Positions 12,772-19,606 of a stretch of DNA of 43,177 nucleotides are shown here, piece by piece. The notes under the pieces are model-generated. The model made no database searches, had not been told where the DNA came from, and was given only the letters and a program-made list of their open reading frames with translations. The translations under genes and the position numbers were made by a program. The DNA lies in the NCBI GenBank assembly GCA_020435995.1, contig JAGQYO010000004.1, forward strand, positions 63,000-106,176, read 5' to 3'. Source of the stretch: Flavobacteriales bacterium (GTDB taxonomy: Bacteria > Bacteroidota > Bacteroidia > Flavobacteriales_G > Salibacteraceae). Each line of letters begins with the position of its first letter. The stretch's first letter is position 1.

Positions 12772-12816
12772 TAATTACAAATCGCTTATAATTCTACAAA
12801 CAAAAAATTGAATATC

Positions 12817-13317
12817 ATGAAAAGATTAATCTTACCCGTAGCTATTTTATGTGTTGGTTTCATCTACACCAGTTGTGGAGGTGGAGGAAGCACTGAAGCT
12901 CCAAAAGAAGAAAAAAAGGTTCAAATGAACATGGGATCGGATCCCGCTCCATCTGCGGAAGCTCCTTCAGCAGATGTTGGTGACCCAATGACTAACCTCG
13001 GAATCGGTCCAGTAAAATCCATTGAGCTTGCTGCCATAGACCAAGGCATGGTTGCAGAAGGTAAAAAACTCTTCGAAGAGTACTGTACTGCTTGTCACAA
13101 GGTGGATAAAAAGTTCATTGGCCCTTCTCCTGCAGGTATTATGGAAAGAAGAACACCAGAATGGGTTATGAATATGATCTTGAATCCCGAAGAAATGATT
13201 CAAAAAGATCCTTTGGCCAAGCAAGTTATGATGGAATCTAATATGGCTGTTATGGCCAATCAGAACATGACTGAAGATCAAGCCAGAAAGATTTTAGAAT
13301 ATTTTAGAACACTTTAA
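12817..13317 (+). CDS. c-type cytochrome lipoprotein, probable electron donor to NosZ
   Basis: 166 residues from the ATG at 12817; a TTG at 12808 would add three residues before the signal and is less likely. Lipobox FIYTSC puts the lipid anchor on Cys20. A flexible Pro/Ala/Glu linker (residues 21-65) is followed by a class I cytochrome c domain with heme motif C90-T-A-C93-H94 and Met-rich downstream region (MMESNMAVMANQNM) supplying the axial Met. The fold resembles cytochrome c551/c552. It lies 20 bases before nosZ, so it most likely carries electrons from the quinol chain to the CuA site of NosZ in the periplasm. The specific partnership is inferred from position. Confidence 0.9.
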   Translation: MKRLILPVAILCVGFIYTSCGGGGSTEAPKEEKKVQMNMGSDPAPSAEAPSADVGDPMTNLGIGPVKSIELAAIDQGMVAEGKKLFEEYCTACHKVDKKFIGPSPAGIMERRTPEWVMNMILNPEEMIQKDPLAKQVMMESNMAVMANQNMTEDQARKILEYFRTL

Positions 13318-13337: not shown

Positions 13338-15293
13338 ATGAAAAGTTTAAAAATATCAATAGCAGCACTAATTGGAATTAGTGGCCTATTCATCGGATGC
13401 CAAAGTGGTGGCCAAAAGAAAGCGGCTTCTGCTACTGGAAGTGATGCAGCAAGCTCAGTTTATGTAGCGCCAGGAGAATATGACGAATTCTATGCTTTTA
13501 TGAGTGGTGGATTCAGTGGGCAACTCTCAGTTCAGGGACTGCCATCAGGTCGCGTATTTAAAGTAATCCCTGTTTTCTCGGTAGATGCAGAAAAAGGATA
13601 CGGCTTTAATGAAGAGACTAAGCCAATGTTAAATACTTCTCACGGATTTATTCCTTGGGATGATGCTCACCACCCTGAGTTATCTCAAACGGATGGTGTT
13701 CCTGATGGAAGATGGTGTTTTATCAATGGTAACAACACGCCTCGTGTAGCTCGTATTGATCTCAAAACATTTGAGACAACTGAGATTCTTGAGCTTCCTA
13801 ACAGTGGTGGTAACCATAGTTCACCCTTTATCACTGAAAACTCAGAATATATCGTGGCTGGTACCCGTTTCTCGGTTCCCATTCCCCAAAGAAACATGCC
13901 CATTAACCTTGCAAAGGGAAATTTTAAAGGTGCACTTTCTTTTATTACAGCTAATGAGCCTGGGAATATGACAATTAAATTTCAGATTCTGGTGCCAGGA
14001 TTTGACTACGACTTAGCGCACTCAGGAAAGGGTAAATCACACGGTTGGACTTTCTTTACTACGTATAACACGGAAGAAGCCCACACCCTGAAAGAAGCTT
14101 ATGCTTCTCAAAATGACAAGGATTACATCGCGGCGGTAAACTGGAAAAAAGCTGAAGAATATTTGGCTGCAGGAAACTTTACTGAAATGCCTGCCGAGTA
14201 TGCTCACAACTATTATGATGAGAGAACCCAATCTGCTACAAGTTCAATGCTTAAGACTGTAAAGGTTTTGGATCCGGCGAAATGCCCAGGACTTATCTAT
14301 TACATGCCTTGTCCAAAGTCACCTCATGGTATTGACGTGAACCCAACAGGAGATTACATTGTTGGTGCTGGTAAATTATCTGCAGACCTTACTGTTCATT
14401 CTTTTGACAAAATGATCGCTGCTATCGAAGGAAAGCAGTTTGACGGTGATGCTTACGGTATTCCTGTATTGAAATTTGACGCGGTAAATATTGGCACAGT
14501 TAGCTCTGGAGGTTTAGGCCCATTGCATACTGAGTTTGATGACAAAGGAAATGCGTATACTTCATTCTTTATCTCTTCAGAAGTGGTGAAATGGAAAGTT
14601 GGTACGTGGGAAGTTCTTGATCGAGTTCCATGTTACTACTCTGTTGGACACCTAATGATTCCTGGTGGAGATAGCAAAAAGCCTTGGGGTAAATACATGG
14701 TAGCAATGAACAAGATCACTAAGGATAGATACTTACCTACTGGTCCAGAAATGTGTCACAGTGCTCAGCTTTACGATATCTCAGGTGAAAAAATGAAGTT
14801 AATTCTTGATTTCCCAACAATGGGAGAGCCACATTACGCTCAAGGAATTCATGCTGATGTTGTAAAACCAAATTCTCAAAAGATTTACAGATTAGATGAA
14901 AATGAGCATCCATTTGCTTGTAAGAAAGAATCTGAAGCCAGAGTTGAAAGAGATGGTAAAGATGTACACGTGTACATGACCATGATCAGAAGTCACTTTG
15001 CGCCAGATAATATTTCCGGATTAGAAGTGGGAGATCGTGTTTATTTTCACGTAACAAACTTAGAGCAAGACTGGGATACTCCTCACGGATTCAGTGTTCT
15101 TGGTGCAAATAACTCTGAGTTACTTATTATGCCAGGTCAAACTGAAACCTTGGTTTGGGAGCCCAAGAAAGAAGGAGTTTGGCCGTTCTATTGTACTGAC
15201 TTCTGCTCAGCGCTTCACCAAGAAATGCAAGGTTACTTAGGAGTTGGCGCCAAAGGACAAGGTGGCGAGCTCAAATGGTCTTTAGGAGATTAA
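13338..15293 (+). CDS. nosZ: Nitrous oxide reductase, clade II (Sec-type) NosZ
   Basis: 651 residues. It reduces N2O to N2 in the periplasm. The N-terminus lacks twin arginines and has a Sec/lipoprotein signal (ISGLFIGC, Cys21), as in clade II enzymes. All seven CuZ histidines are visible: His111 and His112 (DDAHHPEL), His160 (GGNH), His330 (SPHG), His397 (GPLHTEFDDKGNAYT), His438 (VGHL) and His474 (MCHSAQLYDISG). The C-terminal cupredoxin holds the CuA ligands His583, Cys619, Cys623, His627 and Met630 in CTDFCSALHQEM; Asp replaces the Trp of clade I CTWFC, a clade II trait. It is therefore expected to be functional. It is followed by a strong hairpin before the accessory genes. Confidence 0.97.
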   Translation: MKSLKISIAALIGISGLFIGCQSGGQKKAASATGSDAASSVYVAPGEYDEFYAFMSGGFSGQLSVQGLPSGRVFKVIPVFSVDAEKGYGFNEETKPMLNTSHGFIPWDDAHHPELSQTDGVPDGRWCFINGNNTPRVARIDLKTFETTEILELPNSGGNHSSPFITENSEYIVAGTRFSVPIPQRNMPINLAKGNFKGALSFITANEPGNMTIKFQILVPGFDYDLAHSGKGKSHGWTFFTTYNTEEAHTLKEAYASQNDKDYIAAVNWKKAEEYLAAGNFTEMPAEYAHNYYDERTQSATSSMLKTVKVLDPAKCPGLIYYMPCPKSPHGIDVNPTGDYIVGAGKLSADLTVHSFDKMIAAIEGKQFDGDAYGIPVLKFDAVNIGTVSSGGLGPLHTEFDDKGNAYTSFFISSEVVKWKVGTWEVLDRVPCYYSVGHLMIPGGDSKKPWGKYMVAMNKITKDRYLPTGPEMCHSAQLYDISGEKMKLILDFPTMGEPHYAQGIHADVVKPNSQKIYRLDENEHPFACKKESEARVERDGKDVHVYMTMIRSHFAPDNISGLEVGDRVYFHVTNLEQDWDTPHGFSVLGANNSELLIMPGQTETLVWEPKKEGVWPFYCTDFCSALHQEMQGYLGVGAKGQGGELKWSLGD

Positions 15294-15418: not shown

Positions 15419-15991
15419 ATGAAACACCTATCTAAGGTATTAATGTTACTCACCATACCATTAACACTACAATTATTTTTCTTTCCACTCTGGCAAATTA
15501 CGCTAGAAGCACCTCAGTATCCTGAGGGAATTACCATGTTCATCTGGATCAATAAAATCACAGGAACAACTGAATACACCCTTCAAAACATCAACATACT
15601 CAACCACTATATTGGCATGAAATACATCGAGCCAGACTCTATTCCTGAGCTGAAGTATTTTCCTTGGGTTGTAATTGGAATTGCTTTCCTAGAAGTACTC
15701 GGATTGTTTTGGTATAACAGGTGGTATTACTTATTTATTGGTGCCTTGGTTTTTGCCTTAAGCTGTTTGGGTGTTTACGATTTCTATCTATGGGAATATG
15801 ACTATGGTCATAATTTAGATCCAAATGCGCCTATTAAAATAGAGGGAATGGTGTATCAACCCCCATTAATCGGCAGTAAAATGCTCCTCAATTTCAATGC
15901 GATTTCACTACCCGCCACTGGTGGTTACCTTTTTCTATTAGGAAATATATTCGGATTCCTATCCTTTGTGCTTTTTCCAAAAAAGAAATGA
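15419..15991 (+). CDS. Small polytopic membrane protein of the nos operon (possible NosB position)
   Basis: 190 residues with about four membrane segments: near residues 7-25, 78-97, 100-120 and 165-185. A conserved-looking NINILNHYIGMKYI segment lies in the loop after the first segment and contains a potential metal-binding His/Met pair. It sits directly after nosZ, where clade II clusters carry a membrane protein gene often called nosB, but I cannot claim homology to NosB of Wolinella, which I recall as a differently sized protein. Its stop overlaps the nosL start by four bases (ATGA), so it is translationally coupled to the copper chaperone. A role in copper delivery or electron transfer is inference. 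Confidence 0.75.
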   Translation: MKHLSKVLMLLTIPLTLQLFFFPLWQITLEAPQYPEGITMFIWINKITGTTEYTLQNINILNHYIGMKYIEPDSIPELKYFPWVVIGIAFLEVLGLFWYNRWYYLFIGALVFALSCLGVYDFYLWEYDYGHNLDPNAPIKIEGMVYQPPLIGSKMLLNFNAISLPATGGYLFLLGNIFGFLSFVLFPKKK

Positions 15992-16410
15992 AAAGGTTTT
16001 TGATTATAATTTTCGCATCCCTTTTAACGATTTCATGTAGCACGGAGCCTCGAAAAATCCATTACGGATTAGACGTGTGCGAATTTTGCCACATGAGTAT
16101 CACAGATCAACGGTATGGCACCGAAATCGTAACCGAAAAAGGGAAGATCTATACCTTCGATTCGATTGAATGTATGATTGATTATACTGAAGAATCGGGC
16201 GTAAAAGCCGCACAGCAATTAGTAACATCTATACTTAATCCAGGTGTTCTTATTGATGCAAAAGGCACTTTTGTAATTAAATGCAAAGCAATGCCAAGTC
16301 CTATGGGGCGGTATCTGACAGCGTTTCCTAGCAAAGAAGAAGCGCAGAAAATAATAGATGAAAAAGGCGGCGAAATTCTTCCATGGGACGAAGCCTTTAA
16401 ATCTTTCTAG
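15988..16410 (+). CDS. nosL: NosL copper chaperone lipoprotein
   Basis: 140 residues. Lipobox LLTISC places the lipid anchor at Cys17. The conserved NosL Cu(I) site is present as DVCEFCHMSI (Cys31, Cys34, Met36), followed by TFDSIECMIDY. NosL binds Cu(I) in the periplasm and passes it to the NosDFY complex and NosZ for CuZ assembly. It overlaps the preceding membrane protein gene by four bases and is one base before nosD. Length is near the lower end for the family, which often carries a longer C-terminal tail. High confidence. Confidence 0.93.
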   Translation: MKRFLIIIFASLLTISCSTEPRKIHYGLDVCEFCHMSITDQRYGTEIVTEKGKIYTFDSIECMIDYTEESGVKAAQQLVTSILNPGVLIDAKGTFVIKCKAMPSPMGRYLTAFPSKEEAQKIIDEKGGEILPWDEAFKSF

Positions 16411-16411
16411 A

Positions 16412-17644
16412 ATGAAATTTCTCGCGGTAGTATTTTGCTCAATAGTAGCTTTATTTGCGCATGGGGCAAACATTGAAGTATGTCCCAGTTGTGAAATAAA
16501 ATCATTGCGAGATGCGTTGAAGGTAAGCCAACCATTTGATGTAATTAACATAAAGTCAGGAGTTTATATTGATCATGCAATTGAACTCACCATGCCTCTT
16601 ACACTCATTGGTGAAAAAGGAAGCGTGCTCGATGGTGGAGATCAGGGAGAAATTCTAACCCTTCATGCGGACAGCATCATCATCAAGGGACTCACTTTTA
16701 GGAATGTAGGACTTAGTTATACAAAAGATTGGGCCGGCATCAGTTCCGACAGAGTGAAGGGATGTAGAATTGAAAATAACACTTTCGAAAAAACCTTTTT
16801 TGGGATTTATCTACGCAAATCAGAGGATTGCGTCGTTTCAGGCAATTATATGGATGGCGAGGCAGAACAAGAAATGACCAGTGGAAATGGTATTCATTTC
16901 TGGTATTGCAAAAACATGTTGGTTGAAAACAATCAAGTGCTGCGACATCGAGATGGAATTTATTTTGAATTCGTAAAACACAGCATTGTAAAAAACAACC
17001 TGAGTAAAAATAACGTGCGGTATGGACTGCATTTTATGTTTAGCGACAATGATGATTATTTGAACAATACATTTGAAGACAATGGTTCTGGTGTGGCCGT
17101 GATGTACTCCAATTTTATTAAGATGAACAACAACCGCTTTATTGAAAACTGGGGCCCCTCATCCTATGGTTTGCTCCTTAAGGAAATAAAAGATGGAGAA
17201 ATAAAAGGCAATGAGTTTTATAGGAATACCACGGCTGTTTTTGGAGAAGGTGCCATGAGAATGGATATCTCAGAAAACGTATTCACCTATAATGGCTGGG
17301 CCATAAAACTCCTTTCAAGTTGTATGGAAAATACCGTAACTCACAACGATTTTATCTCTAATAGTTTTAGTGTATTTACCAATGCATCTCGCAGTTACAA
17401 CAGTTTTGATGAAAACTTCTGGAGTGAATACAGCGGTTACGATTTAGACAAGGATGGCATTGGCGACATTCCACATCTGCCTGTAAGTCTTTTTACTTTC
17501 ATTGTAGAAAAATGTGAGCCTGCACTGCTTTTAATGAGGAGTAACTTTATCGGACTTTTAGAAATAGCCGAAAAAGCTGCACCCGCCATAACCCCTGAAG
17601 CACTTGTGGATAACAAACCCCGAATGAAACCCCTATGGCAATAA
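16412..17644 (+). CDS. nosD: NosD, periplasmic beta-helix copper-site maturation protein
   Basis: The frame is open from 16358, but the ATG at 16412, one base after the nosL stop, gives the signal peptide MKFLAVVFCSIVALFAHGA and a 410-residue product. The mature protein begins with a C24-P-S-C27 motif, then right-handed parallel beta-helix (PbH1/CASH) repeats such as GIYLRKSEDCVVSGNYM and GIHFWYCKNMLVENNQV. NosD interacts with NosL, the NosFY ABC transporter and NosZ to build the CuZ site. The gene overlaps nosF by 10 bases. NosD of this clade commonly has the N-terminal Cys pair; its metal role is inference. Confidence 0.93.
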   Translation: MKFLAVVFCSIVALFAHGANIEVCPSCEIKSLRDALKVSQPFDVINIKSGVYIDHAIELTMPLTLIGEKGSVLDGGDQGEILTLHADSIIIKGLTFRNVGLSYTKDWAGISSDRVKGCRIENNTFEKTFFGIYLRKSEDCVVSGNYMDGEAEQEMTSGNGIHFWYCKNMLVENNQVLRHRDGIYFEFVKHSIVKNNLSKNNVRYGLHFMFSDNDDYLNNTFEDNGSGVAVMYSNFIKMNNNRFIENWGPSSYGLLLKEIKDGEIKGNEFYRNTTAVFGEGAMRMDISENVFTYNGWAIKLLSSCMENTVTHNDFISNSFSVFTNASRSYNSFDENFWSEYSGYDLDKDGIGDIPHLPVSLFTFIVEKCEPALLLMRSNFIGLLEIAEKAAPAITPEALVDNKPRMKPLWQ

Positions 17645-18396
17645 CAATTGAAAACATCCAAAAACGCTTTGGAAAACAAGAGGTCTTACGTGGTATTCAT
17701 CTCAACTTTAAGGAGGGAACCATTTATTCTATTCTTGGACCTAATGGCTCCGGTAAGACCACTTTAATGAAATCCATTTTGGGATTGGTTCGTCCAGACA
17801 ATGGCGTTATTAAAGTGTTTGAAAACGACACTAATTTTGACCACGAATACCGAAGGAAAATTAGCTATGTGCCACAGATTGCGCGTTTTCCAGAGAATTT
17901 AAAGGTGCATGAATTAATTGATTTGGTTCAAAAAGTTAGGCAGGAAAAAGCGGACCCAACATATTATATCCAGTTATTTGATATCGAAAGCTACCTCCAG
18001 CATCAACTCAAAAATTTAAGTGGTGGAACCCGGCAAAAAGTAAACCTAGTTTTGGCATTTATGTTCAAAACAGACATACTTATTCTCGATGAGCCAACAT
18101 CGGGTTTAGATCCTATTAATGTACTCCGGCTAAAATCGGAAATGAAAAAAATGAAGGCCGACGGGAAGTGCATTATTCTTACAACCCATATTCTACAATT
18201 GGCTGAAGAAATTTCTGATGAGTTGGTTTTTCTGCTTGAAGGTCAAATTAAATATTTTGGAACGCCAGCGAAATTGAATGAGCAAACTCAGATGGATACC
18301 TTAGAAAAATCAATTGCGGCTTTGCTCGAGGTAGGTCCAGAAGGCATTAAAAAGACTCCTAATCTCAACATTAATTCAAAAGGAACTCATGGGTAG
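17635..18396 (+). CDS. nosF: NosF, ATPase of the NosDFY ABC transporter
   Basis: 253 residues. Walker A GPNGSGKTT (about residues 36-44), signature LSGGTRQKVNLVLAF, Walker B ILILDEPTSGLDPINVL and the H-loop ILTTHILQLAEEISDE are intact. It powers NosY and, with NosD, supports CuZ maturation of NosZ. The ATG at 17635 lies inside the last codons of nosD (10-base overlap) and its end overlaps nosY by 8 bases, so translation of nosD-nosF-nosY is tightly coupled. Confidence 0.93.
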   Translation: MAITIENIQKRFGKQEVLRGIHLNFKEGTIYSILGPNGSGKTTLMKSILGLVRPDNGVIKVFENDTNFDHEYRRKISYVPQIARFPENLKVHELIDLVQKVRQEKADPTYYIQLFDIESYLQHQLKNLSGGTRQKVNLVLAFMFKTDILILDEPTSGLDPINVLRLKSEMKKMKADGKCIILTTHILQLAEEISDELVFLLEGQIKYFGTPAKLNEQTQMDTLEKSIAALLEVGPEGIKKTPNLNINSKGTHG

Positions 18397-19165
18397 CATC
18401 TTTAAATATTGTTTGTTCGATTTGATGCGCAGCAAGTGGGCCATCACTTATACTTTATTCTATTTTGTTAGCTGTTCGGCTCTACTCTATTTCTCCAATT
18501 CGCCGAGCAATGCAGTGGCTAGCTTAATGAATATCGTGCTTTTTATCACGCCCTTGGTGAGTTTGTTATTAGGTATTATTTACTTCTACCAAAACCGCGA
18601 TTTTGCCGAATTACTTCTGTCGCAACCCATTAAACGGAACGCCTACTTTCTTGGAAATTACCTCGGCTTAAGCACTTCGCTCGTCCTCAGTTTATTGGTT
18701 GGCTTCGGAATTCCTTGTATCGTGTTTGGCACCTATGAACTCATTGAAGAACTTGGGGTACTTATTTTGTCAGGAGTTATGCTCACGTTGGTATTTAGTG
18801 GGATGGCTTTGCTTTTAACTTTATACAACGAGAACCGAATTAAGGGGTTTGGGTATGCGATTCTGGCTTGGTTATTTTTTGCTGTGATTTACGATGGACT
18901 GTTCTTGGTAGCATTATTTTGGTTCAACGACTACCCCCTTGAAAAATTCGCCCTAGCGGCTACCATTCTTAATCCCATGGACTTGAGCAGGGTTATGATA
19001 CTGTTACAGCTCGACCTTTCTGCATTACTCGGTTTTACGGGAGCTTCATTCCGTCATTTTTTCGGTTCTTATACTGGCTTTTTCGTATCACTGGGTTCTA
19101 TCATGCTGTGGATATTTGTTCCCTTATGGGCATTGCTCAAAAAAGGAAATTCAAAGGATTTTTAA
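18389..19165 (+). CDS. nosY: NosY, ABC-2 type membrane subunit of NosDFY
   Basis: 258 residues with six predicted membrane segments (for example around residues 17-35, 48-68, 90-115, 125-145, 155-180 and 230-252). The loop motif FYQNRDFAELLLSQPIKRNAYFLGNYLG is typical of ABC-2 permeases of the NosY type (contact with the ATPase). It forms the membrane part of the complex with NosF and NosD. The stop codon directly abuts the TTG start of the Rrf2 regulator. Confidence 0.92.
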   Translation: MGSIFKYCLFDLMRSKWAITYTLFYFVSCSALLYFSNSPSNAVASLMNIVLFITPLVSLLLGIIYFYQNRDFAELLLSQPIKRNAYFLGNYLGLSTSLVLSLLVGFGIPCIVFGTYELIEELGVLILSGVMLTLVFSGMALLLTLYNENRIKGFGYAILAWLFFAVIYDGLFLVALFWFNDYPLEKFALAATILNPMDLSRVMILLQLDLSALLGFTGASFRHFFGSYTGFFVSLGSIMLWIFVPLWALLKKGNSKDF

Positions 19166-19606
19166 TTGAATTTGTCCAAAACCGTCCAATACGCGATTCG
19201 GGCGTTGTTATATGTACATAACCAAAACAATGCTGACGTACGAATTCTTTCGGTTCATGAAATTGCCGACAACATAGGCTCACCCAAGCCATTTACGGCT
19301 AAAATCTTACAAACCCTTACCAAAAAACACATCCTTGGTTCATCAAAAGGGCCAGGTGGTGGCTTCTTTTCAAACGAACTTACTGGCCAAGCTACTCTTT
19401 ACGATATTATTGGGTTCCATGAGGGAGAAGATTATCACGCGACTTGCATTCTGGGGCTTCCCCAATGCTCAGATTCTAAGCCTTGTCCTATCCATTTTCA
19501 ATACAAATTGCACCGCTGCAAGTTAAATGACATGTTTAAGGACAATACCATACAACAGTTGGCCGATGAATTATCACAAGGAAAGGACCAATTTCAACTG
19601 TTATAA
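19166..19606 (+). CDS. Rrf2-family transcription regulator with three-cysteine Fe-S site (NsrR/IscR-like)
   Basis: 146 residues. N-terminal winged helix MNLSKTVQYAIRALLYVHNQ with DNIGSPKPFTAKILQTLTKKHILGSSKGPGGGFF is the Rrf2 signature. Three cysteines, Cys94, Cys101 and Cys107 (C-x6-C-x5-C), match the Fe-S ligating loop of IscR/NsrR-type members; Cys118 is extra. The start is a TTG placed directly after the nosY stop; a second TTG two codons on is also possible. As last gene of the nos operon it probably senses NO, O2 or redox state and controls nos or other nitrogen-oxide genes. Whether it is NsrR proper cannot be decided here. Confidence 0.88.
   Translation: MNLSKTVQYAIRALLYVHNQNNADVRILSVHEIADNIGSPKPFTAKILQTLTKKHILGSSKGPGGGFFSNELTGQATLYDIIGFHEGEDYHATCILGLPQCSDSKPCPIHFQYKLHRCKLNDMFKDNTIQQLADELSQGKDQFQLL

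Follow-up and report, generated by a model that had tools for sequence, protein, structure and literature searches.

Clade II N2O reducers are among the main biological sinks of a strong greenhouse gas, and of their essential parts NosB is the least understood. The nosB gene is described as lying directly 3' of nosZ (PMC11409646), and a Wolinella nosB mutant is cited as having lost N2O reduction (Hein et al. 2017, via PMC13274427 and PMC9697520). In flavobacterial nos clusters, a "hypothetical protein" has been reported between nosZ and nosL, or a single protein fused to NosL (PMC9697520). In its passages on these clusters, the same paper equates this hypothetical protein with NosB, at 40-46% identity to Gemmatimonas NosB, and cites LNHYIGM and YGHN as the conserved NosB motifs of van Spanning (2011). 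The published view of NosB, as far as it is represented by the relevant passages of PMC9697520 and other papers, favours a function in electron transport and considers a copper role possible.

The locus that is compared here with these systems is situated in a window of 43,177 nucleotides, the whole stretch of DNA that was analysed, from a Flavobacteriales bacterium of the Salibacteraceae. It comprises the following features:

12808..13317, + strand: c-type cytochrome of the nos cluster (PF00034, 45.2 bits, cut-off 21.3)
13338..15293, + strand: nosZ, clade II Sec-dependent N2O reductase (TIGR04246, 920.9 bits, cut-off 625)
15419..15991, + strand: nosB, 190 amino acids, ATG start, four-helix membrane protein with a predicted claudin-type fold
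15988..15991, + strand: ATGA common to the nosB stop and the nosL start, translational coupling
15988..16410, + strand: nosL, copper-chaperone lipoprotein (PF05573, 40.9 bits, cut-off 24)
16358..17644, + strand: nosD, from the first ATG of the mechanical open reading frame (TIGR04247, 416.8 bits, cut-off 300)
17635..18396, + strand: nosF, ABC ATPase (PF00005, and position)
18389..19165, + strand: nosY, ABC-2 type permease (position, and a PF12679 match below the cut-off, 21.9 versus 27.2 bits)
19166..19606, + strand: Rrf2-family regulator (PF02082, 65.6 bits, cut-off 30)

The order in the window is c-type cytochrome, nosZ, nosB, nosL, nosD, nosF, nosY and Rrf2 regulator. The cluster can be assigned to clade II, since its NosZ scores 920.9 bits with the Sec-dependent model and 370.2 bits with the Tat model of clade I, the cut-off being 625 for both. 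The TGA stop codon of nosB (15989-15991) and the ATG start codon of nosL (15988-15990) overlap. Further downstream, the first ATG of the nosD reading frame (16358) falls inside nosL; the true start is probably at 16412, just past the nosL stop codon. A second complete nos cluster is found in the same genome bin (L103; contig C191, 1-10157), with genes for cytochrome c, nosZ, nosB, nosL, nosD, nosF and nosY as well as a ScdA/Ric-like gene and an Rrf2 gene. The NosZ and NosB proteins of this cluster are 61% and 51% identical to those of the window, and 84% and 76% identical to those encoded on a plasmid of Tunicatimonas pelagia. In view of the latter, high identities, the cluster may be mobile or may represent a contaminating contig.

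The protein encoded at 15419-15991 is almost certainly NosB. Both LNHYIGM and YGHN are present, and the sequence is 46% identical to that of the Gemmatirosa relative, a value consistent with the 40-46% reported for flavobacterial proteins and Gemmatimonas NosB. The gene as such is ordinary, being a further member of a known family, and its reading frame does not occur by chance, since relatives occupy the same gene position in 96 further loci. The first-pass annotation had described a four-segment membrane protein that overlaps nosL by four bases and occupies the nosB position of clade II clusters, and in these respects it is borne out. Its statement that the protein, at 190 residues, could not be matched to NosB does not stand: the motifs and the assignment made in PMC9697520 identify it, and 57 of 97 relatives have a length of 190-199 amino acids. 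That it could not be placed earlier can be explained by the databases, as no family model in Pfam, NCBIfam or PHROGs gives a score over its cut-off for this protein. NosB is labelled "hypothetical protein" in 7 of 7 annotated plasmid records, and PMC9697520 is the sole match to LNHYIGM in the open-licence literature.

The gene neighbourhood is strongly conserved. Among the best 80 of 485 matches in named public genomes, NosZ lies directly before the relative and NosL after it in 79 loci; in the 80th (L035), the contig begins 111 bases before nosB. The same gene order is found in 16 further regions, among them the additional nos cluster (L103) described above. Because the best 80 of 485 matches were retained, the sequence sets are mostly from Bacteroidota. 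Those of 97 and 105 sequences, used below, contain related genomes, at least one genome very likely being present twice (L091 and L116, whose contigs do not differ in length), and the start codons in the sets were picked by a simple rule. In two metagenome-assembled genomes labelled as Bacteroides (L064:8001-12448 and L097:1295-5691), nosB and nosL are separated by an insertion of about 3.5 kb. In plasmid records, nosB follows nosZ in 8 of 8 cases, distributed over Bacteroidota, Gemmatimonadota, Deinococcota, Thermomicrobiota and Halobacteria; the gene after it is nosL in three of these (Tunicatimonas, Hymenobacter and Gemmatirosa) and nosD in the other five. The three haloarchaeal plasmid records have a nosZ annotated as Tat-dependent, and the occurrence of nosB alongside Tat-type nosZ in Chloroflexota and archaea is already noted in PMC11409646. 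Natural NosB-NosL fusions also exist (L075:8001-9026, L023, L033, L040, L051, L077, L078 and L079). In these fusions, a hydrophobic segment with a terminal cysteine, resembling the lipoprotein signal of NosL, is retained inside the fused protein, and lipidation of this cysteine may therefore be lost.

A comparable picture emerges from the scan of 392 Bacteroidota genomes, in which matches to a NosB profile were compared with those to the NosZ model at its cut-off. The NosB profile matches 139 genomes and NosZ exceeds the cut-off in 134, all 134 of which also contain NosB. The first-pass annotation had reasoned that wide occurrence of the protein without nos genes would speak against a partnership with NosZ. 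Such an occurrence was not observed, as only 5 of the 139 NosB genomes are without NosZ over the cut-off, and in 4 of these 5 the contig is truncated or nosZ is disrupted: in G166 and G269, nosB lies at the contig end and is followed by nosL, nosD, nosF and nosY, in G289 the contig starts with a truncated nosZ, and in G408 nosZ is split over two frames. Outside nos clusters, the 392 Bacteroidota genomes contain only one true lone copy and one second copy. The lone copy (G063, L127:6249-9166) is 30% identical to the window protein and is flanked by a hemerythrin gene and an Rrf2 regulator, with a membrane polyferredoxin and a Ric/ScdA-type repair protein encoded nearby. Its best relatives (44-48%; G112, G150, G073 and G204) all come from NosZ-carrying genomes, and it may therefore be a remnant of a nos cluster; the alternative is that this NosB serves a different function. 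The second copy (G443, L128:7877-8999) is divergent, reads KHIGL at the motif position, immediately precedes an Rrf2 regulator gene and is separate from the nos cluster of its genome.

Hydropathy and an AlphaFold2 model of the window protein (pLDDT 89.7 and pTM 0.82, with an alignment of 44 of the 81 available rows) agree on four membrane helices, modelled at residues 4-20, 77-98, 101-130 and 167-184. Both termini are predicted to be cytoplasmic, while the two periplasmic loops are predicted to form one beta-sheet domain. The elements of these loops are:

15485..15646, + strand: first periplasmic loop, residues 23-76, modelled as strands 25-31, 34-42 and 47-49 and helix 54-64
15593..15619, + strand: NILNHYIGM, residues 59-67, published NosB motif; Asn62, Tyr64 and Gly66 invariant, His63 and Met67 nearly so
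15803..15814, + strand: YGHN, residues 129-132, the other of the two published NosB motifs, where helix 3 ends on the outer side
15809..15916, + strand: second periplasmic loop, residues 131-166, with modelled strands 152-156 and 159-165; A137, P148, P149 and G152 invariant

The two loops constitute the most conserved region of the protein (mean top-residue share 0.77). Loss of the loop motif in relatives had been set beforehand as an outcome that would refute the first-pass reading, and the motif is in fact retained: HYxGM is present in 97 of 97 sequences, YGHN in 92 and the exact LNHYIGM in 36. The exact string NHYIGM is not suited as a mark of the family, as it is found letter for letter in only 38 of the 97 and the position after the tyrosine varies. 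In the set of 105 sequences, 13 positions are invariant: P23, W25, A31, Q33, N62, Y64, G66, E77, G130, A137, P148, P149 and G152. Eleven of these are located in the periplasmic loops, and the remaining two, E77 and G130, at the outward-facing ends of helices 2 and 3. None of the invariant residues in the 105 sequences is a histidine, methionine or cysteine, and the sole cysteine of the window protein (position 116, within helix 3) is not conserved.

On the basis of the models, NosB is predicted to share the claudin/TARP fold. By title, all 50 matches listed in a Foldseek search against the PDB are claudins, TARP/GSG1L proteins, designed claudin folds or DUOX1-DUOXA1, the GSG1L and TARP entries being listed either alone or with AMPA receptors; the best E value is 1.7e-3, with no match at E 0.001. 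In VIA-align 2, 144-157 residues of the window model align to claudin-type chains with Z up to 11.1, a value obtained for both TARP gamma 7 (144 residues, rmsd 3.1) and claudin-9 (145 residues, rmsd 3.7), and the tool itself warns that a Z below about 13 may be due to chance for helical bundles. A second model, that of the Zhouia amylolytica NosB-NosL fusion (L075; pLDDT 88.2, pTM 0.67), which is 54% identical to the window protein, repeats the same secondary-structure elements. Its NosB part aligns to claudin-type chains over 148 residues (rmsd 3.1) with Z up to 11.8, a value to which the same warning applies, and rows 6-50 among the matches listed for the fusion are all claudin-type by title. 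The NosL part of this model matches the NosL structure 7og7 with a Z of 17.1, which serves as a built-in positive control.

The claudin fold is described as comprising four helices and a sheet of five strands, strands 3 and 4 of loop 1 being linked by a conserved disulfide (PMC13307082, in its account of the fold). Four helices and an extracellular five-strand sheet are found in both predicted models. The disulfide is absent, as there is no conserved cysteine pair in the 105 NosB sequences. With E values up to 1 admitted, the Pfam matches include no claudin family, and neither the sequence nor the profile search of the PDB yields a solved chain; there is also no match among predicted viral structures (best E 1.0). 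Given the lack of the disulfide cysteines and of a sequence match to solved structures, a shared predicted fold is claimed here, not family membership or common descent. The open-licence literature, which includes no preprints and few subscription journals, holds no relevant paper that links claudins to NosB or to bacteria. The prediction of a claudin fold for NosB thus appears to be new, a negative literature result being weak evidence of novelty.

In animals, claudin-fold auxiliary subunits serve channels and oxidases by holding or maturing their partners. We consider the chances about even that NosB is a periplasm-facing docking or assembly subunit, which links NosZ to the NosDFY/NosL machinery and is not a redox or copper carrier. 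The helices of NosB would then pack against a partner in the membrane, for which NosY, the permease of NosDFY, is the likeliest candidate, and the conserved outer face (W25, Q33, N62, Y64, G66, E77 and the PP-G loop) would hold apo-NosZ and NosL during copper loading. NosB would act in analogy with the animal subunits and would itself carry neither electrons nor copper. The periplasmic location of 11 of the 13 invariant positions, the natural fusions to NosL and the nature of the invariant residues, none of them His, Met or Cys, argue for such a docking function. In the fused members, a further hydrophobic helix (H199-212 in the L075 model) leads into NosL, a layout that fits NosL on the periplasmic side with the termini of NosB inside. 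On the other hand, a shared fold alone demonstrates no function, the genome with the lone copy keeps NosB without NosZ, and the literature, in the portions that deal with NosB, assigns it to electron transport. The hypothesis of claudin-type docking, together with the 13 invariant residues and the NosB-NosL fusions, makes the role of NosB directly testable, and it moves the focus from His and Met to W25, Q33, N62, Y64, G66 and E77 as the prime targets for mutation.

It seems rather unlikely that NosB instead functions as a copper relay, in which His63, Met67 and His131 would coordinate Cu(I) at the surface of the membrane and convey it from NosL/NosDFY to NosZ. These residues are near-invariant, being retained in 103, 102 and 102 of the 105 sequences, respectively. 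Furthermore, NosB is coupled and fused to NosL, and its fusion to NosL is the ground on which PMC9697520, in the relevant passage, suggests a copper role. However, the three haloarchaeal members have Phe at position 67, two of them with Arg or Lys at position 63, and the Deinococcus member has Thr at position 131. These exceptions are few, but they mean that the His/Met loop cannot form a copper site shared by the entire family. None of the fully invariant residues is a copper ligand, and in Deinococcus ficus and Thermomicrobium NosB lies apart from NosL or has no annotated NosL in the stretch shown. A metal site at His63, Met67 and His131 is possible in most members, judging from the retention of these residues in 97-98% of the sequences. 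The earlier proposal of copper binding through the histidine and methionine of the loop is therefore weakened: HYxGM is kept, yet His63 and Met67 show exceptions while their neighbours Asn62, Tyr64 and Gly66 show none.

An electron path to NosZ, in which NosB would serve as the membrane subunit that docks quinol or a cytochrome, is in our view improbable. The literature describes an electron route through NosBC2 in clade II and mentions fusions of NosB to the cytochrome NosC2, and the lone copy of G063 adjoins genes for an Rrf2 regulator and a membrane polyferredoxin. Against this, the 105 sequences contain no conserved set of heme or Fe-S ligands, no conserved membrane histidine and no conserved acidic pocket on the cytoplasmic side, all conservation being found on the periplasmic side. 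Finally, it is hardly credible that the protein is something other than NosB, for example, a piece of a ComEC-like DUF4131 domain, since the Pfam match to this domain (21.2 bits, E 2.5e-4) stays under the gathering cut-off of 31.6 bits and covers only hydrophobic segments (81-154), and gene order, motifs and co-occurrence with NosZ all point to NosB.

In comparison with the known NosB proteins of Wolinella succinogenes, Gemmatimonas aurantiaca and Flavobacterium, the window protein has the same position after nosZ, the same polytopic membrane character and the LNHYIGM and YGHN motifs. No feature that would distinguish it from clade II NosB was found in position and motifs, the sequence comparison being with the Gemmatirosa protein. 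With the NosDFYL complex, known from clade I structures (7og7, 7znq and 7osf), the link is through NosL, which is encoded by the partner gene and is predicted, in the fused form, to adopt the known NosL fold; by the entry titles, NosB is not a component of these structures. The likeness to claudin, TARP and PMP22 resides in the predicted succession of a helix, loop-1 strands with a short helix, two helices, loop-2 strands and a last helix. The strands are divided 3+2 over the loops in NosB, according to DSSP, as against 4+1 in claudins, as given in the account of the claudin fold in PMC13307082. Moreover, NosB is bacterial or archaeal and linked to nos genes, whereas claudin, TARP and PMP22 are four-helix membrane proteins of animals. 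As a tentative proposal, which we hold at somewhat less than an even chance, NosB could be a prokaryotic claudin-fold auxiliary subunit, the counterpart by fold of TARP, Cav gamma and claudin, that docks NosZ and NosL onto NosDFY. If this is true, the fold of the animal four-helix auxiliary subunits also serves anaerobic respiration in bacteria and archaea.
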